Positions 26,523-54,156 of a DNA stretch of 64,000 bases are shown here, one piece after another. The translations under genes and the position numbers were made by a program. This DNA is from Prevotella scopos JCM 17725. Its GTDB lineage: Bacteria > Bacteroidota > Bacteroidia > Bacteroidales > Bacteroidaceae. The notes beneath the pieces are model-generated. The model saw nothing but the letters and a program-made list of their open reading frames with translations. It searched no databases and was not told where the DNA came from. Positions within the stretch are counted from its first letter, which is position 1. Every line of letters starts with the position of its first letter. The stretch is from contig NZ_CP072390.1 in assembly GCF_018127785.1 (NCBI RefSeq), positions 1,674,001 to 1,738,000 on the forward strand, in the 5' to 3' direction.

Positions 26523-27053
26523 TTAATTCTCAGGTAAACCTATTTCTGGATTGAATTTTACAGAGACTTTTCTATTCTGAACAATATTTACTTGTCCATT
26601 ATATGCAATATTAGATTCATCATATTTCATATTTGGATTAGCATAGTACACCCTTAGCTTATAATTACCAGATGTAAATTTGCTAATCTTAAAATTAACG
26701 TCGTATTTGCAAATACAATCGGCCAGTGCATCAAGGACATTATGGTACACGATAAGGGTTATCTGATTATCTTGATTAGCAATATTCACATAAATCTTTC
26801 TTACGGAACAGTTGGCTTTCAAATCTTCCAGTAGACACTGGGCTATACCGTCTTTGTCCAACTCTATACTTAATTTTGCTGGAATAGAATTGTTTTCTGC
26901 ATAGAAGTCAGGACGTGTATCTGTCGGTGAGATGCTTAACTTACAATTAGAATTTGCAACATCATAAATTCTTAATGGCTCAAGAGATACCTTCTCAGAG
27001 GAACATGCAGATAATCCACAGAAAAGGATTAGGCTGTAAAATACTTTTTTCAT
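26523..27053 (-). CDS. Small lipoprotein with CxC motif, sigma/radical-SAM locus
   Basis: This is a 176-residue lipoprotein with lipobox GLSACSS (Cys about residue 17). The mature part is predicted beta-rich and holds a conserved-looking SNCK near residue 37, an NCS pair and CICKYDVNFKI followed by SGNYKLRVYY. It ends in a polar tail. The CxC followed by a long strand resembles small Bacteroidales lipoproteins encoded with envelope sigma factors, but no function is known to me. It is the last gene of the five-gene minus-strand locus, 129 nt after the preceding lipoprotein gene. Confidence 0.6.
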   Translation of the reverse strand: MKKVFYSLILFCGLSACSSEKVSLEPLRIYDVANSNCKLSISPTDTRPDFYAENNSIPAKLSIELDKDGIAQCLLEDLKANCSVRKIYVNIANQDNQITLIVYHNVLDALADCICKYDVNFKISKFTSGNYKLRVYYANPNMKYDESNIAYNGQVNIVQNRKVSVKFNPEIGLPEN

Positions 27054-27182: not shown

Positions 27183-27710
27183 CTATTCAATCAACTTCCC
27201 GTGTTTTTTGAGTATTGAGAGAAACTCTCCCCATTCTGCCGCTCTTTTTTCTTTTGCTTTTTGAATGGCCTTGTTCTCTTTAACATATTGACTATTGTCC
27301 TCAATATTACGTGGGTAACAGTCACTCAGATAAAACTTGCCAGATTCTGAAACTAATGATAAGTCTGTGAAGATTTGACTATTGAAAGATGACACAAACG
27401 TTGAGATATGGAGTAGAACCTTACCATACGAATGTATTTCTATGTTACGATAAATGGGAAAAAGCAGACTTGTCGGCTCAAAATCTTGAAAAATAATCTC
27501 ACGCGTCTGCGCGTTGAAAGACTTGATGTTGTCAAGTGTAAAGAGATAGGGGCTTAAAGCGGCTCTTGTCATTCGGGCTGTCCCTATAGCAAACAATTCC
27601 GTTTTCGATGCTTGCACTGTGGGAGTTGAAGCAGACTCATCTTCATTGCTGCAACCTATAAACAGCAACGAGAAGATGAACGCCTGTAATACACAAAAGT
27701 ACCTTTTCAT
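27183..27710 (-). CDS. Small lipoprotein, sigma/radical-SAM locus
   Basis: This 175-residue lipoprotein has lipobox LFIGCSNED (Cys about residue 20), then an acidic/Ser-rich tether. The middle part (FTLDNIKSFNAQTREIIFQD) is a short beta segment seen in several small Bacteroidales lipoproteins. A charged helical C-terminus (NKAIQKAKEKRAAEWGEFL) follows. It lies 23 nt after the oxidoreductase gene and so is probably co-transcribed. Function is unknown; it may be surface or periplasmic and could be a ligand or partner of the sigma-linked barrel (inference). Confidence 0.6.
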   Translation of the reverse strand: MKRYFCVLQAFIFSLLFIGCSNEDESASTPTVQASKTELFAIGTARMTRAALSPYLFTLDNIKSFNAQTREIIFQDFEPTSLLFPIYRNIEIHSYGKVLLHISTFVSSFNSQIFTDLSLVSESGKFYLSDCYPRNIEDNSQYVKENKAIQKAKEKRAAEWGEFLSILKKHGKLIE

Positions 27711-27733: not shown

Positions 27734-28813
27734 TTATAATATGTGGTCGTCAATTATGTTCATATACTTCTTTATTTCTGCCATTAAGGAATAAACATGA
27801 TTAACACTTTCCAAACCCAAAGCATAATTAGCCTCATGTTTGTTTTCAATCATGTCGGCAAAAGTCTTGATTTCAGAAAAGAACCCTTGTGAAACGATTT
27901 GGTTATTCCCAATAGTTGGGACAAAGTTGTTTCTTCCGTAGAGACAAATTGTTGCTCCATTGTTTGGAAAGACTTTCTCCAACGGAATCCCTAACAATGC
28001 TGAGCGTCTCGGCATGAAATCAAGTCGCTCCATGTTTTCCAACACATAAAGTCCTTTATCTGTACTGATATTTAGCTGTTCCTGTGCTTCTTGCCAAGAA
28101 TAATCTGTTGATAGTTCCAACATTCCTGTTATATCTTGGTGCTCCAATACAAGAAATAAAGTTTGAGCACCATCTCTACTGCGAATAACATCCAAGCTCT
28201 TTATCTTTGCCTCTCCAAAAAGGAATGTTACATAGTCAAGAGGATGGATGAATAGGTCAAGTAAAGTATCTCCTTCAGGGAATAATCCTGTCAGATAGCG
28301 ATAATGATAATGCCGTTTGCCATCACCTTTCAATCGTTTTTTCAATACTTGAGTGGCAGGGGCAAAACGCCTTTGCAGTCCGACAACGATATGTTGTGAG
28401 CCATATAGCTTGATAGTATCGGTCAAAGACTTTAATTCTCTTTCATTCTCACAGGGTGGTTTCTCTATAAATAAGGACTTTCCTGCTTTTATAGTTTCGG
28501 TTGCAATCTGAAAGTGTGAATGGGGATTAGCTGCCACAAAAACACCAGAAACGGTATCATCAAGCAGTATATCCTGTAAAGAAGTTGTTCCTTTGACTCC
28601 TTTATACTTTTGAGAAATCAGTTCGGCTTTCTTCTCTGAGGTACAGCAGATATATTTCAGTGGTAACTGAAGATACTGTATGACGGGCAGAAGGTTGTTT
28701 GCACAATGATTGCCAAACCCAACAAGAGCATACTGTTGCGTGTAAGTATGACTCAACTCTCTCATACTGCGTATATACTTGTATCTGCCTATGATGTTAT
28801 CTAAATATCCCAT
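27734..28813 (-). CDS. Gfo/Idh/MocA-family NAD(P)-dependent oxidoreductase
   Basis: This 359-residue protein has a Rossmann segment near residues 28-40 (ALVGFGNHCANNLLP), the cofactor-associated EKPPC motif near residue 118 and VVGLQRRFAP following, as in Gfo/Idh/MocA oxidoreductases. The catalytic-type segment LFIHPLDYVTFLFGEA resembles the DxxxH region of the family. About 28 extra N-terminal residues precede the Rossmann fold. The first 13 nt overlap the end of the radical SAM gene, so the two are translationally coupled. The substrate is unknown; a sugar or modified small molecule is possible. Confidence 0.8.
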   Translation of the reverse strand: MGYLDNIIGRYKYIRSMRELSHTYTQQYALVGFGNHCANNLLPVIQYLQLPLKYICCTSEKKAELISQKYKGVKGTTSLQDILLDDTVSGVFVAANPHSHFQIATETIKAGKSLFIEKPPCENERELKSLTDTIKLYGSQHIVVGLQRRFAPATQVLKKRLKGDGKRHYHYRYLTGLFPEGDTLLDLFIHPLDYVTFLFGEAKIKSLDVIRSRDGAQTLFLVLEHQDITGMLELSTDYSWQEAQEQLNISTDKGLYVLENMERLDFMPRRSALLGIPLEKVFPNNGATICLYGRNNFVPTIGNNQIVSQGFFSEIKTFADMIENKHEANYALGLESVNHVYSLMAEIKKYMNIIDDHIL

Positions 28814-29886
28814 TTTAGCTTTGCTTTTATTCGTTTGAAATGTTTATTATAGGTAGTTTGCCTGTTGCTGGTCCATTGATACTTCCCATAAAACAACTCT
28901 ATCAACCGTTTGGGGATTATCTTTTCTATATTTCTTAACAGGATAATGTCATATTTTCGGTGATAGTTGATCCAACATTGATTGCATTCTTTGGAGTACT
29001 GACATTGAATTTTGCACGTATTCCTTGAATTGAATATCTCATCGAGCGTATTCTCGTGAATATTACCCAAGATTACATCTAAATTCTGGCATAAGGGGAC
29101 ATCCCCATTAGAATGTATGACCAATTCACTGAATATGCTATGACACCGTAACTTCAGTCTATTATTCTTCCACTCGTCATACATAGCTACAAAGTCAAAG
29201 TTCTCATATGTTTGATGTATGGAAGAGGGTATCTGGCTGATGAAATCCGCATCATTGGATTCTATTAAATCTTTGGTTGTGTCGAAGAATGACATTGTGC
29301 TATAAATGCCAATACGTACATCAATGTTATATTGTTTAGCACAATCTATGACATGCTTCATATCCTCAAACGAGTTCCACGGAGAAAGACAAAACATCAA
29401 GGAAATAGGAACAATATCCCTACACGCCTCTATAACTTCGATAACCTTATCATATCCATCCCTGCCACGCATATAGAGATAGGTTTCTCTGGTGCCGTCA
29501 AGTGAAATATACAGATGCTTGGGGTGATGATTTTTTACAGCAGATATTACCTTGTTTACCGCAAGACAATTAGACAGCAGCGTATAGTTAGGATGATGAG
29601 TGTCAAACCATCCCAATATCTTGTCTGCTTCGGGATGAAGGATAAACTCACCTCCCTCCAAGCCGACCGTCGTGCGTTTCGTTATACATTTGCTGTTCAT
29701 TATCTTGATGATGTGGTCTAATCTTAAATTTTCCGTAGGTTTCTTCCAAATGGAACAGTGCTTGCAACGTGACTGGCAGTTGGTAGTGGAATATATCATC
29801 AAGGAGGTAAGTTCCTTATGCTGTCTGCGTACTACATTGTTGACAAATACCATTCCATTGTGGATGTAGTCATAAATACTGTACAT
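28801..29886 (-). CDS. Radical SAM protein with SPASM-type C-terminal cluster domain
   Basis: This 361-residue protein carries the radical SAM CX3CX2C motif at Cys37, Cys41 and Cys44 (NCQSRCKHCS). A GGE motif follows (VGLEGGEFILH), and a Cys-rich SPASM-like C-terminus begins near residue 250 (CHSIF, VPLCQNLD, CKIQCQYSKECNQCW). SPASM proteins bind auxiliary Fe-S clusters and modify peptides, proteins or small molecules. It is coupled to the oxidoreductase downstream and lies 91 nt after the sigma-barrel gene. A 29-nt motif 44 nt upstream of its start is duplicated upstream of that sigma gene. The substrate is unknown; no precursor peptide was seen nearby. Confidence 0.85.
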   Translation of the reverse strand: MYSIYDYIHNGMVFVNNVVRRQHKELTSLMIYSTTNCQSRCKHCSIWKKPTENLRLDHIIKIMNSKCITKRTTVGLEGGEFILHPEADKILGWFDTHHPNYTLLSNCLAVNKVISAVKNHHPKHLYISLDGTRETYLYMRGRDGYDKVIEVIEACRDIVPISLMFCLSPWNSFEDMKHVIDCAKQYNIDVRIGIYSTMSFFDTTKDLIESNDADFISQIPSSIHQTYENFDFVAMYDEWKNNRLKLRCHSIFSELVIHSNGDVPLCQNLDVILGNIHENTLDEIFNSRNTCKIQCQYSKECNQCWINYHRKYDIILLRNIEKIIPKRLIELFYGKYQWTSNRQTTYNKHFKRIKAKLKWDI

Positions 29887-29929
29887 ATTTTTTAAGTTTT
29901 GTCTTTTATTGTAAGAGTAGAAAACAGAA

Positions 29930-29958
29930 AAAAGACTGCACAGTTTTATAACCTTTTT
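29930..29958 (-). promoter_or_regulatory. Putative ECF-type promoter of the radical SAM operon
   Basis: Read on the minus strand, AAAAAGG-TTATAAAACT-GTGCAGTC-TTTT lies 44 nt before the radical SAM start. Of 29 positions, 24 (including 12 in a row) are identical to the site at 31730-31758, 43 nt before the sigma-barrel start. The pair does not match the housekeeping TTTG/TAnnTTTG pattern, which suggests an alternative sigma promoter or operator. Confidence 0.6.
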
Positions 29959-29977: not shown

Positions 29978-31687
29978 TTACCAAGTAAGCCGTAATCCGA
30001 ATGGTACGGTAATAATAAACGGATGCTCTGTACGGTAAGTTTCGAGACTACTACCATTTCTAAAATAATAGAACATATTTGGTTCTATATACAGGCTGAA
30101 AGGTTTGAATAGCTTGTACTGCACACCGGCACCTAAGTTTACAGACCACTGATAACGTGGCTTGATGTCACCCTTCAGAGTGTAGGACGAGTCAGACGTT
30201 ATGATATACTTCTTATCAAGTGAACTGTGAACTGGCATCTCGAATGTCACTCCACCGGTCGTATAGGCATTGAATCGTCCCTTGCTCCATATACGATAGG
30301 TCAATCGCAATGGTATGCCTATATAATCAATTTTCTGACTCTTCAACAAAGTCGCACCATTAAACTCGCTCTCAAAATCAGACTTCAACCTTGTATAGGT
30401 CAATCCTGTGCCAAAAGTCCAATGCTGACTTAATTGCTTATTAAGCGATAAACCAAATGTTTTTGGGCGGTAGTGATGCGCCTTCTCACCTAAAGACGCA
30501 TTGCCCTCTGTTGCATTATTCAGTGCAATCCATGACATTTTTGCCCTCTCTACAGAATCCATCAGCGCATTGTTCCTGACTAAATAATTTACATAATCAT
30601 CCCAGGTATATAGTTTGGCAGCCGCACCGCCGTTAGCATAATCTACCACCGAGAGATAGTTCAAATTAGACATAGTTCCATTGGCTCCAGCATTGGAGGA
30701 ATAGCCGAAGTTGAATGTCCACGGGTATTTCTTCTTATGGTTTACATCGAGGTTCATGTTTCCATTCGATGCCAACATTTTATCTTCTGAAATTTGTGGA
30801 ATACGGAGCACGGAGTCGTCTATACTGATTTCACCAGTAGCCAAATACTTTGGCAAGGAATCTACATGGAAGAATACTGGCTGCTGCTCTGATTCAACAC
30901 TGTCTGTTATGATCTGTGAAGAAATATCTTCAGTAGAAAGAGTCTTTTCTGCCAAAACACGCCTATCATTTTCAGTAGCACTTGAAGGTATAGAATACCT
31001 TGGCTGCCCATTCTTTTGAGAAGCAGCTCTATTTTGTTGAACTCGTTTTGGAAAGTTATGATGAGTATCTAAAGCCGTTGATCTATTATGAGATGTGTCA
31101 ACGAACTTGTCCCTCATTACGAAATAGATATAGACAGGTATCAGGATGGGAAGCAAGAACAGCATCCAATACTTAATCAATATGACACGCAGCATTTTCT
31201 TTGCCCGAGCCAACTGCGAAGAAGAACTATGTGGATTGATACCAAGCAGATTCCCTATTTCCTTATGTGAAAGACCGTCCAACACTGAGAGTTTGAATAT
31301 TTCTCGGTTCCCCTCTGGTAACAGTTCTATCGCTGACAGCAACAACTCCAGTTCTATATTCTTTTCTTTATCGTCTTCTTCGCTCAACAAATCTTTCCCC
31401 AGACTGGATAAAAGAATATTACTTTTTTCTGTACTTTGTAGGAATCTCAACGAAAGGTTTCTCACAATCGTTATCATCCATCCTTCCAATTTTGAGTTGT
31501 CCTTCAGCGAATTAATAGAGGTAAAAATGATGATAAAAGCATCGTGCAAAATATCTTCTGCCGTACTTTCATCTTCCACGTAGTGCAGGCATATTCTCTT
31601 TAATCTGTCGGAATATGCCTTATATAAATTTCCGAGAGCCTCACGTTCTCCCTGTTTACATGCGTCTATATTAACATCTATATTCAT
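29978..31687 (-). CDS. ECF sigma factor fused to an outer-membrane beta-barrel
   Basis: One uninterrupted frame joins four parts (numbering from the longer start at 31741). Sigma region 2 is at about residues 30-103 (ALGNLYKAYSDRLKRI, STAEDILHDAFI). Sigma region 4 is at about 130-187 (LPEGNREIFKLSVLDGLSHKEIG, HTH ending SQLARAKKML). A transmembrane helix follows at about 191-208 (WMLFLLPILIPVYIYFVM). A polar, probably disordered linker spans about 209-339, and a barrel about 340-587 with amphipathic strands and a closing strand ending VPFGLRLTW. The start at 31687 is preferred because it places the upstream motif at the same distance as for the radical SAM gene. The product would span the cytoplasm, inner membrane, periplasm and outer membrane. 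Separate sigma and barrel/anti-sigma genes are the usual arrangement; the fusion is unusual. Confidence 0.82.
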   Translation of the reverse strand: MNIDVNIDACKQGEREALGNLYKAYSDRLKRICLHYVEDESTAEDILHDAFIIIFTSINSLKDNSKLEGWMITIVRNLSLRFLQSTEKSNILLSSLGKDLLSEEDDKEKNIELELLLSAIELLPEGNREIFKLSVLDGLSHKEIGNLLGINPHSSSSQLARAKKMLRVILIKYWMLFLLPILIPVYIYFVMRDKFVDTSHNRSTALDTHHNFPKRVQQNRAASQKNGQPRYSIPSSATENDRRVLAEKTLSTEDISSQIITDSVESEQQPVFFHVDSLPKYLATGEISIDDSVLRIPQISEDKMLASNGNMNLDVNHKKKYPWTFNFGYSSNAGANGTMSNLNYLSVVDYANGGAAAKLYTWDDYVNYLVRNNALMDSVERAKMSWIALNNATEGNASLGEKAHHYRPKTFGLSLNKQLSQHWTFGTGLTYTRLKSDFESEFNGATLLKSQKIDYIGIPLRLTYRIWSKGRFNAYTTGGVTFEMPVHSSLDKKYIITSDSSYTLKGDIKPRYQWSVNLGAGVQYKLFKPFSLYIEPNMFYYFRNGSSLETYRTEHPFIITVPFGLRLTW

Positions 31688-31729
31688 AGATATACCATAC
31701 CTTTTTATTAAAAGGAGCATGTTTTGCTT

Positions 31730-31758
31730 AAAAGACTGCACGGATTTAGGAACTTTTT
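31730..31758 (-). promoter_or_regulatory. Putative autoregulated promoter of the sigma-barrel gene
   Basis: Minus-strand sequence AAAAAGTTCCTAAATCC-GTGCAGTC-TTTT is a near copy of the site at 29930-29958, exactly 1800 nt away and equally far from its gene's start (43 against 44 nt). This fits positive autoregulation, as is common for ECF sigma factors. Confidence 0.6.
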
Positions 31759-34144: not shown

Positions 34145-34921
34145 TTATGCTACATTGCAGTGCTTTTCTCTCATTTGTCTTGGCGTAAGCATGCCGTTGC
34201 TCATATGGGGTCTCTTATTGTTGTAGAAGTCTATGATACCAGCAATAGTGCATCGTGCATCATCGAGGTTCTTCGGTCGTTTCATGTGGTAGAGCCACTC
34301 TTGCTTTATTATTCCGTTCACTCTTTCGGCGATTGCATTATCTGTAGGGTTGTAGTCTTCAGTCATGCTTATGCCCGAGCGTATACTCTCCAGCCTTGCC
34401 ACGTAGGCGTTGCTGCAGTATTGAACCCCACGATCAGAGTGGTGCGTCATCAGCGAGAGATTCATACCCTGTGAATGTTCTATTGCCATGTCTAGGGCAG
34501 CAAGCGTATTGACAGCCTGCAGACTGTCAGAAAGCTTCCATCCGATTATCTCATGAGTGAATGCATCGGTTATGAGGTGAAGATAGACCACACCATCCTC
34601 AGTATCTATATATGTGATGTCTGCTACCCAGAGTTGTGCAGGACGTGTAAGAACCATTCCTTTTGCCGTGTTCTTATACTTGAAATAGTTGTGATTGGAG
34701 TTCGTGGTGTGGCGACATCTGGATGGCTTCAGCATAAGGTGATGCTTGTGCATTAGCTGGTAGAACCTGTCGCGCCCAAGCATTAAGCCAGGATAGATAT
34801 CCATAAGCATGTGCAAAAGTTTCTGTGCACCTATTCGAGGAGCATCTGCACGAACATCCATTACTGCACGTACGACAATTTTCTCAGTAAGTTTACGATG
34901 CTCCCTCTTCTCTTTACTCAC
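34145..34921 (-). CDS. IS3-family transposase OrfB (DDE integrase domain)
   Basis: The visible frame starts at a GTG (34921) and gives 258 residues, but the same frame is open upstream to the A7 run at 35023-35029. It encodes there KSWRQAVDSLRVSN and LSGLFGKTREGYYSV, normal OrfB N-terminal sequence. The true product is therefore probably an OrfAB fusion made by -1 frameshifting. The rve core is present with DDE residues in WVADITYIDT, HHSDRGVQYCS and NAIAERVNGIIKQEW. The C-terminus (NNKRPHMSNGMLTPRQM) is typical. Confidence 0.93.
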   Translation of the reverse strand: MSKEKREHRKLTEKIVVRAVMDVRADAPRIGAQKLLHMLMDIYPGLMLGRDRFYQLMHKHHLMLKPSRCRHTTNSNHNYFKYKNTAKGMVLTRPAQLWVADITYIDTEDGVVYLHLITDAFTHEIIGWKLSDSLQAVNTLAALDMAIEHSQGMNLSLMTHHSDRGVQYCSNAYVARLESIRSGISMTEDYNPTDNAIAERVNGIIKQEWLYHMKRPKNLDDARCTIAGIIDFYNNKRPHMSNGMLTPRQMREKHCNVA

Positions 34922-48111: not shown

Positions 48112-51100
48112 TTATTTTATTCTGAAATTATGATTATATCTTGCAGGTATAAGTAAACCTATAATAGTCGGTCTTGTAAGTGACCCACATCCCCCAGGTG
48201 TGCTATAATTCCAACCTCCAGATACGTTTAAATTTATTGGGAGTGCATTTCTATAGCTAACATTATCAATATGTACATCACCTGTAAAATTTGTTCCAGA
48301 AGGAACAACATATGTTCCGGTTGTTTTTTTAAAAGAGTATTCCGACTTCTTACTTCCTACTTTAAATTCTACTTCGAACGCACCTTCAACATCTATATCG
48401 GAAATATTAGAGTATGATGTTAGCATAACATGTGCATCGAGAATCTTGGCCTGTACATGATCATTTATATAAACATAAGTGTCAACTGTCATCAATGCAT
48501 TTCCAGCTCCGACTTTTTCATCAAAAGGAAAAGTGACAAGAATTTTACCTCTATGATGCATTTTTGTTTTTCTTAAATGCATATAATCGTTAAAAAGAAA
48601 TGAAAAGGCTCCTGTAACAGCTCCATTTGCAAATTTACCTCCACCTATTTCATCTATTGTTCCACTAACGATAGAAGCAGATATGATTTTTAATGCTTTT
48701 GTCATATCTGTAGCTTTGTTAATGCCATATCCGCCTGCTCCCGATACAGCCCCCATCATAAAACCATGGAACATATTACCTCCTTGTACTCCTTCTAACC
48801 AACCCTGAGAAAATGTATGTTTAAATAGTTGTTCCCATATAGTTCCACCACCTGAGGCAAAATTTAAGAAACCGCTTGCACCACCAACTACGGCTCCGAT
48901 AAAGGTGCTTTTTGCTATTTGTCCAATATTAGCCCCGTTAAGTAGGGCACCCGTCAATGCGCCAGCAGCACCTCCTACTGCACCAGCAATGATAGCAGCT
49001 CCTAGGGTAGTGCCAGACCCAAGTGTTACGACAGAGACTGCTATACCAACTATAGACGCAGTAATTGTTTTCCAGTTTTTGCTAAACCAGCTATATCCGG
49101 ATGGATCTATCAGGGAAAGAGGGTTGTTTATACAATACGCATAGCGGTTCAGGCTTTGTGTAAAGTCTGGGCTCTGTATAAACGGGTCAGCAGAAATAAA
49201 ACGTCCCACGACAGGGTCATACATTCTACCGTCCATATTGACCAGTTCAAACAGGTCAATATGTTCATGCCCGCCGAAGCCATGATCATTATAAGCATTG
49301 CTTGATGCCACCACATCAAATACTACCCATGTCTCCGGGTTACGCCTTAATCCCCATGCATCATAGCTTAGTTCCTGATACAGCTTGCCGAGTTCATCAG
49401 AATAAACCTGAATGGAGCCTAAGTGGTCATGATGTAGGTATTTTACATCTTCAATGTCATTAGCATCCTGTGAGAGTATTGCCACAGCCTTTCCAAATAC
49501 AAAGATATAGTTTGTGCCACTTATCTTGCCATTTTCAACCGTCTGCTCAAACAGATTATCCACATAATATTTCCGCACTCCCTGAATGTCTACCAATACT
49601 CTCGATTTGTCTGGACCGTATTCTATCAGCATTGTTTTATCGCCTGATACAATCTTGGCTACTTTGTCGAAAGAGTTATAGCTGATTTCATCCCAAGTCG
49701 CAATGGAACGCTTGCAATCCGTAATGGAAGACAACTTGTTGGAACCGTCTGTATAGATATATGTTCCGACATCAGACTTGCTAGTTATATTGCCAGCGTT
49801 GTCATAAGTCATGGACTGCGTCACCTGACCGTTCTTACGAACATTTGTCAGACGATACAAACCATCATACGAGAAGGATTCCGATAGATTTCTCTTTAAA
49901 TCACGACGTGTGACAAGATTGCCCACGGCATCAAAACTGTATGTCCAATTTTGAATTCCGGGTGTCAATATGCTGGAGATGGTACCTTTTTGGGGATCAT
50001 GAGCTGTTGTTGTGATGAGACCGTTTCCGAATTCTTCCTTCTCTATCTGTCCCCTTGCATCCAAGTCATGGAGCTTCCAATAGAGTTTCTGGTTGTCGGC
50101 ATTTGAAACTGATATCTGTATTCCGCAGGCATCATACCCATTCTTAACTTTCAGTCCTTTGGGATATTTTATGGTCTCAACCTGATTTGCCAAGTTGTAT
50201 GTATACGACGTCTCATACGCCCTGTCATCTATGACAGTATTTTTCTTGATAACCCGTCCGTAATTATCATAAGTATATGTCTCTGAATACTGTATGGAAC
50301 CCACAGAAACGACTTCGTCAACAGCACCCTTCCATCCTTTGTCATATGTAGTTGAAATCGTTACCTCCGGTCGGACTTCCTGTATGATACGTCCACCAGT
50401 GTCATATTCAAATCGGGTCTCCCCGTGACCGTCTTGATGGGCAATGAGCTCTCCAAACGCATTGTATGTGTCCTGGGAATGCCCTAAATCCGGATCATCC
50501 AAGCTTATTCGGTTTCCTGCTATGTCATAGGAACAGTGAATGGTCGTCCTTGGTCCCTTAGTTTCTATGCACTTTCCATCCGCATCATATTTGTAAGTAA
50601 TGCCTGTACCAGCATTGTCAATACTGGAAGCCAGCAAGCCGTTAAGATTGCTAATTTTTGTACTGATGCTTCCAAGTGGGTCCGTTGCCGTAGTCTTAAG
50701 TCCACTATATGCGAAGATGTGGCGGCTTCCATCAGGGGCAGTTTGCGCAGTAGTCCTGCCCACAGCATCGTATTCATTCTTGCTCCAATACTGTTGTCCG
50801 CCGACATAATATGGCTCAGAAGTCCTTTCGACAAGCCCCTTCTTATCATAAGTCCGGTCTATGTAGACCTTCTTTCCGTTAACCGACTCCGTAACTTTTC
50901 TCAACAGACGTCCTAAACAGTCGTAGAACTCGATGGAAGAAGGCTCTCCTGTAGTCTTGTTCCACTCAAAATACAATGCGTTCGCTGGTGCATCAGACAT
51001 TCCGGCACTCCACCCCGTAGTTTTCAATGTTTTTGAGATAGGGGTAGATGCTGTAACAAGATTACCAAATTTATCGTAAGTGTAATTAGTAACAATGCCG

Positions 51101-54100
51101 TTCTTATCCGTTGAAGCGGTAACAAGTCCCTCCACCTCGTTGTATTTCAATGTTTCAATAAATCCTAAACAGTTGGTAGAGGATACGATATATCTGCCCT
51201 TGGCATCATAGCGGGTTTGGGTAATCCTTTCTGATGAGTTGTCAAAAGGAGAAACAGTACTTTTAACGATATTTCCAAAGCCATCGTGGACGTATGTTTT
51301 TCTATAACCCAATTCGGTATTTCCCGGGGCAAACACTTCTGTGGTCAACAAGCCGGAATTTGGATCATATTCGAATGAGGACTTCCGAGTTGTTGTACCA
51401 CTCTCATTGGATTTGGAAACAGTACATTCCGTTAGTCTGCCCAAAAGCCATTTGTCAGTATTATTGATGAAAGTGCCGGTGGTGGTTGTCTCAATGCTTC
51501 CATCCTTAACAATGGTCTTTGTGGTATTCCCCCAAGTGTCATACTCATAGTCTGTCTTTACATCCTTGATTAGTTCACCGGTGTTAAACTCGTAGTTCTT
51601 CTGATGAACCGTCATCGGCATATAGGTATAGATGCTAGAATTATAGGACGACGAAGCATAGTTTGATTTAAGTGTATATGTATGGTAGCTCTCCTCAATC
51701 ACCTTGCCATTGACAGTGGTCCGGCTATGCTTGGGCGCAATCACATATTTTTCGGTGTTCACCGAATATTCCGTAGTGTTCAATGTATTGGTGGTCTCGT
51801 CTTTCACATAGCATTTTTCAAAGCCAAGCAAGCCACGCCCGTTTTTGTGGAATAACGCATTTTCATATCTGTATGATGTCACATTAGTCCCGCCAATTCC
51901 ATCAGGTGTTGAAACAGACGCCACTACAGGCCATGACAAACCTATGGAGACAAGAGGATATGAATTTGTCCTGCCTCTGGTAAATACACTTTCATCTGTC
52001 AGATATTTATAATCAATATTGGTGGAATTGCCCAAACCGTCTTTGATACCCGTCAAAAGACTATGTTTGTCAGATGGCATCAAATAAACCTGATAACCAT
52101 CCCAGTTGCTTTTATTCCAATTAGAGGTACAAACGAAATCGGCTTTGCCGTCACCGTTGAAATCGCCAACATAGAAATGCCACTTGTCCGTAGCATATAC
52201 ATTACCACCTTTTACCTGTTTATAAAAATTGCCTCTCCCGTCACTAAGGTAGGCCTGCGGTTGCGTCATATTACTTCCAGAAGATGTCTTGTCGATGGCC
52301 TGGAAGTCATCGAATCCATCACCGTTTAGATCCGCAATATACAGTTGCTTTGAACGTGCATCAAAGGGTTTTTCATAATACTCTGTGGTAAACTTGCCAT
52401 CCCCTTTTGAATAATTGATGCACCAAGTACTCCATCCTCCTCTATTGGGATTTTTTGTCCACCCAGTAAGCAGCATGTCAGTCTTTCCATCTCCATTGAA
52501 ATCTCCAAGTTCCAGATAATGGTTCTTATTAGGCCATGACGATTTATCCTCCTTAGTCATGGTTCCCGCACCATCGCAATACATGATACAGTTGCCGTTG
52601 TCATTAAGATTCATCACATCTGTCAGCCCATCTCCATTGAAATCGCCATATTCAACCCTGTCCCACTTTTCGGAACAATATCTAACCGCCGTATAATCTA
52701 AAGGTGTTAACCCATTTGCCCCCTCCTTTGAGCGGATTAGTTTACACTCCTTGGAATTCGAAAGCCATGCGAACAAGTCAGCAGCTCCATCGCCATTCAA
52801 TTCTACGGTTTGGATTGTATAATCTCTTGCAAGCGAGATGAAACATTTCGAGAAAGCAAGACTTATCTTTCCGTTGTTGTCCACCGATGTTGTGTATAAG
52901 TCGCAGTTATGCCATTTGCCGGAATGGCATCGTTTTGCAACAACATCGGCATAACCGTCACCGTTAAAGTCCCCACAGACAACCTGCTCAAGTTTATCGT
53001 CATTCCAGTTCCATGTCCCACTTGCGACCTGTTCAAAGTAAGTGCTATGACTTATAAAAAGTTTCCAGCCTTTCCAACCTGCTCTGTCATTCTCTGGAGT
53101 TGCTATGAAATCTGCCAATCCATCGCCATTGAAATCACCTACAGTCAAAGTCGCCTTGTGAATAAGTTTTGTCTGGGAGTAATTGTAATTCTGTACCTTA
53201 AAATCGCTAAGATTGGTCCACGTCAGTTGTGTCGGATTCTTATGTTCTCCTCCAGACGCGGTCTCTGTTACTTCTGAAAGTTGATATTTGCGTTTTTCGA
53301 CTTGATAATTAAACTGAAAGTTACGCACGACTTGGTCTCCCATGAACAGTGCTATAGAAAAAAGAAGTTGGCTCCTTTTAACTCTCGCGCCATTGACATA
53401 AGTAACCGGTGAATAAGGATTGCTCATGTAACTAAAACGGATTGAGGCATAAGGAGACAATCCTACCGTGGCATTTCCCGTATAGTCAATTCGTGAAGGA
53501 TAGAAATCATTGGTACTAGCCTCACCACCATATGTGACGGTGAAATAGTTACCTTTTGTGTCAGATACTTTTGACACAAGCCAAAACAGGGTTGAGTCTG
53601 TTTCTGCCTTACCTAATGCTTTTGATACGGTTACATAATCATATATCAATCCGGACTTGGTATATACCGTGAAAGATGTAGGGTTGGTACTTTTTCCATT
53701 TGCCAAGATTTTTGCGAAAGAATTGTTTTCTGTTCTATATTCTGTTTCCGTACCATAAGAATAGTTATATTTTATTAATCTCTGACCGTCCAATGCAAAA
53801 TGATCATGACTAGTAAAATCTATTGCTGTGGCCATCCCATCATGAAACCTGTCTGATGGAATTCGGCTTATAATGGATAGTCCCATAAGGTCAAAGCCAT
53901 ATCCAGCCAAACCATTTTTCGTGGAACTGTTGTAACATACTGATAAATTCGGCTTCATACCACCTGTTCCGGGAAGAGCTGGTATCGGGATTTCGTATGA
54001 CAGTTGTCCTGTAGGAGAAACATTTATCTCATCATTGATTTTGCCGAAAACTCCATTTCCGACTCCTCCGTGTTCTTTATCAGTATAAAGACGTTCCTGT

Positions 54101-54156
54101 GCAAGACTGCTTATCGTTATCAATAAATATATCAAAAGAAGTAAATGTTTTTTCAT
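48112..54156 (-). CDS. Giant secreted FG-GAP/RHS repeat protein with variable C-terminal domain
   Basis: This is a 2014-residue protein with a signal peptide (MKKHLLLLIYLLITISSLAQ). The order is a SpvB/TcdB-like N-terminal domain (VSPTGQLSYEIPIPALPG, GLAGYGFDLMGLS), then seven FG-GAP/VCBS calcium-type repeats (GDFNGDG and variants). Many YD/RHS repeats (TYDKKGL, EYDAVGRTT, TYDNAGNITSK) follow, then the RHS core DPVVGRFISADPF ... NNPLSLIDPSGYSW, ending near residue 1690. The last about 324 residues hold a Gly/Ala-rich, glycine-zipper-like segment and a beta-rich tip of about 155 residues of no known family. RHS shells enclose toxic or adhesive C-terminal tips. The gene follows the type IX sorting-domain protein by 5 nt. 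Confidence 0.9.
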   Translation of the reverse strand: MKKHLLLLIYLLITISSLAQERLYTDKEHGGVGNGVFGKINDEINVSPTGQLSYEIPIPALPGTGGMKPNLSVCYNSSTKNGLAGYGFDLMGLSIISRIPSDRFHDGMATAIDFTSHDHFALDGQRLIKYNYSYGTETEYRTENNSFAKILANGKSTNPTSFTVYTKSGLIYDYVTVSKALGKAETDSTLFWLVSKVSDTKGNYFTVTYGGEASTNDFYPSRIDYTGNATVGLSPYASIRFSYMSNPYSPVTYVNGARVKRSQLLFSIALFMGDQVVRNFQFNYQVEKRKYQLSEVTETASGGEHKNPTQLTWTNLSDFKVQNYNYSQTKLIHKATLTVGDFNGDGLADFIATPENDRAGWKGWKLFISHSTYFEQVASGTWNWNDDKLEQVVCGDFNGDGYADVVAKRCHSGKWHNCDLYTTSVDNNGKISLAFSKCFISLARDYTIQTVELNGDGAADLFAWLSNSKECKLIRSKEGANGLTPLDYTAVRYCSEKWDRVEYGDFNGDGLTDVMNLNDNGNCIMYCDGAGTMTKEDKSSWPNKNHYLELGDFNGDGKTDMLLTGWTKNPNRGGWSTWCINYSKGDGKFTTEYYEKPFDARSKQLYIADLNGDGFDDFQAIDKTSSGSNMTQPQAYLSDGRGNFYKQVKGGNVYATDKWHFYVGDFNGDGKADFVCTSNWNKSNWDGYQVYLMPSDKHSLLTGIKDGLGNSTNIDYKYLTDESVFTRGRTNSYPLVSIGLSWPVVASVSTPDGIGGTNVTSYRYENALFHKNGRGLLGFEKCYVKDETTNTLNTTEYSVNTEKYVIAPKHSRTTVNGKVIEESYHTYTLKSNYASSSYNSSIYTYMPMTVHQKNYEFNTGELIKDVKTDYEYDTWGNTTKTIVKDGSIETTTTGTFINNTDKWLLGRLTECTVSKSNESGTTTRKSSFEYDPNSGLLTTEVFAPGNTELGYRKTYVHDGFGNIVKSTVSPFDNSSERITQTRYDAKGRYIVSSTNCLGFIETLKYNEVEGLVTASTDKNGIVTNYTYDKFGNLVTASTPISKTLKTTGWSAGMSDAPANALYFEWNKTTGEPSSIEFYDCLGRLLRKVTESVNGKKVYIDRTYDKKGLVERTSEPYYVGGQQYWSKNEYDAVGRTTAQTAPDGSRHIFAYSGLKTTATDPLGSISTKISNLNGLLASSIDNAGTGITYKYDADGKCIETKGPRTTIHCSYDIAGNRISLDDPDLGHSQDTYNAFGELIAHQDGHGETRFEYDTGGRIIQEVRPEVTISTTYDKGWKGAVDEVVSVGSIQYSETYTYDNYGRVIKKNTVIDDRAYETSYTYNLANQVETIKYPKGLKVKNGYDACGIQISVSNADNQKLYWKLHDLDARGQIEKEEFGNGLITTTAHDPQKGTISSILTPGIQNWTYSFDAVGNLVTRRDLKRNLSESFSYDGLYRLTNVRKNGQVTQSMTYDNAGNITSKSDVGTYIYTDGSNKLSSITDCKRSIATWDEISYNSFDKVAKIVSGDKTMLIEYGPDKSRVLVDIQGVRKYYVDNLFEQTVENGKISGTNYIFVFGKAVAILSQDANDIEDVKYLHHDHLGSIQVYSDELGKLYQELSYDAWGLRRNPETWVVFDVVASSNAYNDHGFGGHEHIDLFELVNMDGRMYDPVVGRFISADPFIQSPDFTQSLNRYAYCINNPLSLIDPSGYSWFSKNWKTITASIVGIAVSVVTLGSGTTLGAAIIAGAVGGAAGALTGALLNGANIGQIAKSTFIGAVVGGASGFLNFASGGGTIWEQLFKHTFSQGWLEGVQGGNMFHGFMMGAVSGAGGYGINKATDMTKALKIISASIVSGTIDEIGGGKFANGAVTGAFSFLFNDYMHLRKTKMHHRGKILVTFPFDEKVGAGNALMTVDTYVYINDHVQAKILDAHVMLTSYSNISDIDVEGAFEVEFKVGSKKSEYSFKKTTGTYVVPSGTNFTGDVHIDNVSYRNALPINLNVSGGWNYSTPGGCGSLTRPTIIGLLIPARYNHNFRIK

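Follow-up and report, generated by a model that had tools for sequence, protein, structure and literature searches.

A Dma3-type sigma factor-barrel fusion in Prevotella scopos with a predicted promoter pair and adjoining target operon

In Prevotella scopos JCM 17725, a single gene (29978..31687, minus strand) joins an ECF sigma factor to a predicted outer-membrane beta-barrel in one polypeptide, and we assign a probability of about 0.6 to its product being a one-protein device of the Dma3 type, in which a sigma factor locked at the inner membrane would be freed by proteolysis to drive its own gene and the adjoining operon. All positions refer to the analyzed stretch of 64,000 nucleotides (contig NZ_CP072390.1, positions 1,674,001 to 1,738,000), from here on the window. 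The fusion design itself has already been described for Dma3 of Bacteroides thetaiotaomicron, reportedly introduced in a 2024 PNAS paper; new here are the absence of an anti-sigma segment, the pairing of promoters, the predicted target operon, and the recombination of sigma heads and barrels.

The gene begins with an ATG, ends with a stop codon at 29978-29980, and encodes 569 aa. An alternative upstream GTG start (587 aa) was judged unlikely because it falls inside the promoter core described below. From the N terminus, and always on the minus strand, the protein comprises ECF sigma region 2 (residues 21 to 86, 31430..31627), region 4 (residues 114 to 166, 31190..31348; Pfam PF08281, 49.3 bits), a single transmembrane helix located by hydropathy and alignment (residues 174 to 192, 31112..31168), a disordered polar linker of 129 residues with pLDDT values of ca. 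30 (residues 193 to 321, 30725..31111), and a predicted small outer-membrane beta-barrel (residues 322 to 569, 29981..30724). The first-pass annotation had read the C terminus as a barrel, and structure prediction agrees, with tryptophan as the terminal residue. The two structure models make the transmembrane helix continuous with the last helix of region 4 (helix 157-194 in one and 153-196 in the other); their confidence over region 4 and the junction was only moderate (pLDDT ca. 45 to 80), which weighs against the preferred reading. Sequence variability in the alignment peaks in the linker, and regions 2 and 4 rank with the best-conserved parts. Across 40 aligned members the linker spans 85 to 157 residues, a contour length of 31 to 57 nm at an assumed 0.36 nm per residue, so the earlier proposal that it could cross the periplasm holds for these members.

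The sigma domain content is restricted to regions 2 and 4, and among the NCBIfam matches listed only the sigma70-ECF superfamily model reached its cutoff; with regard to the ECF21 group, TIGR02985 gave 93 bits, for a cutoff of 126.4. That none of 25 specific sigma-subfamily models reached its cutoff among the matches listed would suit a sigma half that is a relic anchoring the barrel. This explanation is very improbable, given that both sigma domains score above the Pfam cutoffs and are highly conserved and that the paired promoter (see below) is kept where the proteins are only ca. 30% identical to that of the window. A Pfam search of the fusion gave no match to a periplasmic anti-sigma domain of the cell-surface-signaling type, the C-terminal part being the predicted barrel.

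Within the P. scopos genome, the 11 matches to the PF13568 barrel and the 13 matches to region 2 share a position at the fusion alone, and the next closest two are separated by ca. 11 kb; a separate sigma/barrel pair was therefore rejected, in a search restricted to PF13568 barrels. No separate cognate ECF sigma factor was found beside the fusion, as the other 12 region-2 matches all lie >100 kb away. Elsewhere in the genome (L002:1667-2869), a 400-residue protein combines an N-terminal membrane helix and an extended polar linker with a barrel match that falls short of the cutoff; it had no sigma or anti-sigma match. An integrase-core (rve) gene is located near the fusion (34148-34921), and a similar-looking one (L088:5029-5946), identified by reading only, lies near the fusion in another genome of the genus. 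The window also encodes a 2014-residue secreted repeat protein (48112-54156) that resembles an Rhs/YD-repeat protein on sequence reading.

A homology search retrieved 1322 homologs, and the 120 listed ones cover 86 to 100% of the query, one of them (P0088) without the region-2 domain. From 119 confirmed loci, a scan of genome contigs retained 80, of which 67 are of the fusion type (L004 to L070) and 13 have a stand-alone sigma gene (L071 to L083). The frame is unbroken in 61 of the 67 fusion-type loci, which come from isolates and metagenomes, with 498 to 606 aa as upper bounds, counted from the first possible start codon; the C-terminal residue of these intact fusions is tryptophan in 48 and phenylalanine in 13. 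The fusion is thus real and conserved, as first proposed, and the same open frame in so many loci refutes an assembly or sequencing artifact joining two genes, to which we attach a negligible chance. Among 199 genomes of the same family (that of P. scopos included), at least 36, counted by eye among the matches listed, had a near-full-length match in one frame, two of them with an internal stop, and the same listing held many adjoining pairs of a ca. 190-residue sigma frame and a ca. 430-residue barrel frame. Some genomes carry two sigma-barrel fusions (L015 and L035; G008, G039, G045, G145, and G146).

Six fusion-type loci failed the test for an intact frame (L023, L030, L056, L059, L062, and L065). 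L056 also meets a contig end, and the failure of L065 probably stems from frame choice, a 494-residue ORF of the family being present there. L023 has an in-frame stop just before the membrane helix and L030 a frame change within it. A stop between the halves had been named at the outset as a sign against the fusion; such breaks do occur in a minority of loci, but both loci are nested among the fusions in the tree, and the breaks look secondary. Interruptions at the sigma/membrane junction would leave a free sigma half, comparable to the active truncations of IutY (see below).

The sigma-domain tree had 80 rows, namely 62 fusion loci, the window, and 17 stand-alone sigma factors (L007, L009, L035, L056, and L065 were left out), and a single branch with support of 100/99 separated fusions from stand-alone sigma factors. 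Because the tree tool warned that long branches meet here and the tree was rooted at its midpoint, we only infer that, within the loci sampled, the fusion probably had a single origin from two-gene pairs of a sigma factor and a barrel-anti-sigma protein, with loss of the anti-sigma segment. As to the confinement to Bacteroidota that marks the Dma3 type, two of the 67 fusion loci come from MAGs labeled Lachnoclostridium (L036) and Fibrobacter (L053), and their position in the tree suggests that they are probably misbinned Bacteroidales contigs.

The first-pass annotation knew of no characterized example of such a fusion. This claim falls with Dma3, since a published study describes, at locus bt_2778-2779 of B. 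thetaiotaomicron, a Dma protein with its own cognate sigma factor as the N terminus (PMC13088901). Dma3 and the window protein share an N-terminal sigma factor and, by prediction for the window protein, a chain spanning both membranes, a tether, and a C-terminal barrel, and neither has a separate cognate sigma factor adjoining. In the literature searched on fused sigma-barrel proteins and the Dma family, which mostly excluded subscription papers, this architecture was found only there, and the same literature yielded no account of the absent anti-sigma segment, the paired promoters, or the operon. The same study reports that the dma3 locus is raised in both dma1 and dma2 mutants and that deletion of dma3 did not revert the hypervesiculation of either mutant (PMC13088901), the latter weighing against the reading preferred here. 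Another study lists BT2778 with a value of 2.3 among the iron-dependent stimulon, which we take to mean that it is raised in low iron (PMC10434189). The Bacteroides faecis fusion (L034), used as a stand-in for Dma3 (BT_2778) in sequence comparisons, falls inside the same tree group and is ca. 35% identical to the window protein; it differs from the window in that the next gene is a methyltransferase and not a radical SAM/Gfo-Idh set.

The characterized two-gene systems of a sigma factor and a barrel/anti-sigma protein are Dma1/Das1, Dma2/Das2, and EcfO/Reo (PMC13088901, PMC9308784, and PMC13114119), and in the first two of these sources the barrel half serves as the anti-sigma factor. Like the fusion, two-gene pairs have a transmembrane helix and a tether, and in same-family genomes their sigma and barrel halves are detectably homologous to it. 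They differ from the fusion in that sigma factor and barrel each have a gene of their own and in the cytoplasmic anti-sigma segment of the barrel protein (ca. 47 residues in L085 and L086). In 58 of the 67 fusion loci the membrane helix begins 2 to 11 residues past the region-4 motif, which therefore leaves no room for this segment; among the other nine, seven gave no match to the region-4 motif pattern and two (L023 and L030) are interrupted there. At the stand-alone-sigma loci, reading by eye placed ca. 40 to 57 residues before the membrane helix of the next protein in nine cases (L071, L074, L078 to L080, L082, L083, L085, and L086) and ca. 130 in L073, with L081 reading unlike the others. 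When the neighbors at three of the loci L071 to L083 were tested with Pfam, those of L071 and L078 gave barrel matches; that of L082 had no Pfam barrel match and groups with the fusion family by BLAST.

A further relative in design is IutY of Pseudomonas putida, described as a polypeptide with sigma, transmembrane, and periplasmic parts that is freed by Prc and RseP; the tested variants that were truncated behind the sigma part needed no signal and were constitutively active (PMC5411451). As in the fusion, a single chain carries the ECF sigma factor, the transmembrane helix, and the periplasmic part. IutY differs in that its periplasmic anti-sigma domain answers a separate outer-membrane receptor and the chain contains no barrel.

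A predicted ECF promoter precedes the fusion gene (31710..31741, minus strand), with the TGCAGTCTTT core within 31730-31741 and CTCCTTTT at 31710-31717, and a second copy precedes the radical SAM gene (29911..29941, minus strand), with the core within 29930-29941 and CTCTTAC at 29911-29917. The Prevotellaceae form is ECF-like and can be written TGCAGTCTTT-N13-CTCYT; in core-aligned copies of this family the second element, CTCCTTT or CTCTT, follows 13 nt further on, a gap that fits the usual ECF spacing. The sequence GTGCAGTCTTTT occurs twice in the window, directly before the fusion gene and directly before the next gene. The window alone proves little, since two or more matches within one mismatch also appeared in 10 of 100 shuffles, and the test is comparative. 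For the window and 66 loci (L056 left out), the exact core GCAGT[CA]TTT was found within 150 nt upstream of the fusion in 57/67 and within 150 nt past its stop in 50/67, against 11 of 6474 mostly coding background windows on the same strand and, as a fairer control, none of 762 stretches of 150 nt upstream of other ORFs at the same loci. With one mismatch allowed, the numbers rose to 64/67 upstream and 57/67 downstream versus 3.0% of 8107 background windows. The 10 loci without the exact core upstream and the 17 without it downstream weigh against the preferred reading.

These counts are not independent, because the motif was first spotted in the window and the loci are related. When related loci were reduced to a single one per 90% sigma identity, the exact core remained in 35/45 upstream and 30/45 downstream, and at 70% identity in 14/21 and 13/21. 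The core also recurs at loci of Bacteroides and Muribaculaceae where the protein has only ca. 30 to 35% identity to that of the window. The related TGCAGTATTT form lies before the sigma gene in all four sigma/barrel pairs fetched from the same family, pairs that are comparable in arrangement to Dma1/2 and EcfO/Reo. At the stand-alone loci L071 to L083 (130 nt inspected), GCAGTATTT was found only before L082, and L079 to L081 have GCAAC forms. In the P. scopos genome, TGCAGTCTTT-N11-15-CTC gave three matches, two of them at the fusion locus and the third inside a coding frame, with one match in the reversed control, and the TGCAGTATTT variant gave two matches versus six in the control; for these reasons a wider regulon was rejected and no further targets are claimed. 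By comparison across loci, the promoter pairing predicts that the sigma factor of the fusion drives its own gene and the adjoining operon.

The predicted operon, also on the minus strand, starts with a radical SAM/SPASM enzyme (28801..29886; PF04055 and PF13186). A Gfo/Idh/MocA-type oxidoreductase gene (27734..28813; PF01408) overlaps the end of this first gene and belongs to a family present in 28 loci, the window included. Two small putative lipoproteins follow, lipoprotein 1 (27183..27710), with matches in 13 loci, and lipoprotein 2 (26523..27053), with matches in 24 loci and an operon membership assumed from order and strand. Neither has a Pfam or NCBIfam match, and a relation to NigD, also sought in these two collections, was set aside. 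Over 67 loci including the window, the gene after the fusion most often encodes a radical SAM/SPASM enzyme (30 loci) or a class I methyltransferase (21 loci); small lipoproteins take this place at 4 loci, CotH-type proteins at 3, serpins at 2, and other products at 4, and no gene follows at 3 (families were named by Pfam from one representative each). In other Bacteroidales, groups F8 (L044, L045, L067, and others) and F14 (L040, L042, L043, L064, and L065) have a serpin or CotH-kinase-like lipoprotein gene directly, or one to two genes, after the fusion. We infer that the radical SAM/Gfo-Idh/lipoprotein operon probably alters the cell envelope because of its lipoproteins and because, under envelope stress, activation of a two-gene pair of Phocaeicola vulgatus leads to longer O-antigen and more NigD lipoproteins (PMC9308784 and PMC13114119).

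DNA identities of sigma heads and barrels were hardly correlated (r = 0.23; 171 pairs among 18 named-genome loci and the window). Hallella bergensis (L006) and Prevotella multiformis (L016) are 69% identical in the head but 97% identical in the barrel; for L004 and L015 the head value is 95% and the barrel value 66%. Protein pairs show the same mismatch. By these comparisons, heads and barrels recombine between species, and the barrel behaves as an exchangeable module. Of the 12 loci, named or MAG, in which lipoprotein 1 had a match, 10 showed 97 to 99% identity to that of the window and the other two 79 to 81%. Since the heads in the same loci are only 70 to 87% alike, copies with 98 to 99% identity to that of the window across Prevotella, Hoylesella, Hallella, and Alloprevotella (L004, L013, L016, L023, and L030) suggest recent transfer.

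Recombining halves are also what would be expected if each folded alone, as in a chain that is invariably processed, once made, into a free sigma factor and an ordinary outer-membrane barrel, whose fusion would have no signaling meaning; the few loci naturally interrupted between the halves fit this as well. We nevertheless regard constant cutting as quite improbable, because the frame is kept over ca. 500 to 600 residues in 61/67 loci, the tether is never shorter than 85 residues in the 40 aligned members, and two-gene relatives employ the barrel half as anti-sigma factor (PMC13088901 and PMC9308784).

In the preferred, Dma3-type reading, region 4 runs straight into the inner-membrane helix, which would hold the ECF sigma factor silent, and the disordered tether is predicted to span the periplasm to the small outer-membrane barrel. 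By analogy with IutY, a disturbance or ligand at the barrel may expose the tether to a first cut, after which an RseP-type protease could cut the membrane helix and free the sigma factor. The first-pass annotation had likewise proposed sensing at the outer membrane and proteolytic release of the sigma domain, which is plausible. The free sigma factor would then transcribe from TGCAGTCTTT-N13-CTCYT promoters both its own gene, replacing the spent sensor, and the radical SAM/Gfo-Idh/lipoprotein operon, with the presumed alteration of the envelope.

The tethered sigma factor could instead be active at the membrane uncut, with polymerase binding there and the barrel only setting accessibility. ToxR and CadC are membrane-bound regulators that could serve as a model for this. 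Cleavage is unnecessary for autoregulation and promoter pairing, and no conserved cut site is evident in the linker, the most variable part of the protein. We consider this alternative unlikely, although less so than constant cutting: with region 4 within 2 to 11 residues of the membrane, docking of polymerase and -35 DNA should be hindered, and proteolysis is what activates IutY, the closest design that has been tested (PMC5411451). Membrane locking with proteolytic release is favored because IutY is freed by Prc/RseP and the genome of P. scopos has an RseP-type protease (one match over the cutoff).

Taken further, and with somewhat less than even confidence, the fusion may be a self-contained surface-to-promoter switch without an anti-sigma factor, in which the membrane would act as the inhibitor, each cut molecule would fire once, the sigma factor would renew its own supply and turn on one envelope operon, and the barrel would be a sensor swapped between genera under one promoter code. 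If so, the same output could be rewired to new surface signals. For the Dma3 type, so far uncharacterized, the analysis supplies a broad family, a promoter that can be tested, a predicted target operon, and a proposed mechanism needing no anti-sigma factor. If true, one protein chain reaching from polymerase to surface would turn events at the outer membrane into transcription, and the barrels would be natural swappable sensors in the Bacteroidales.
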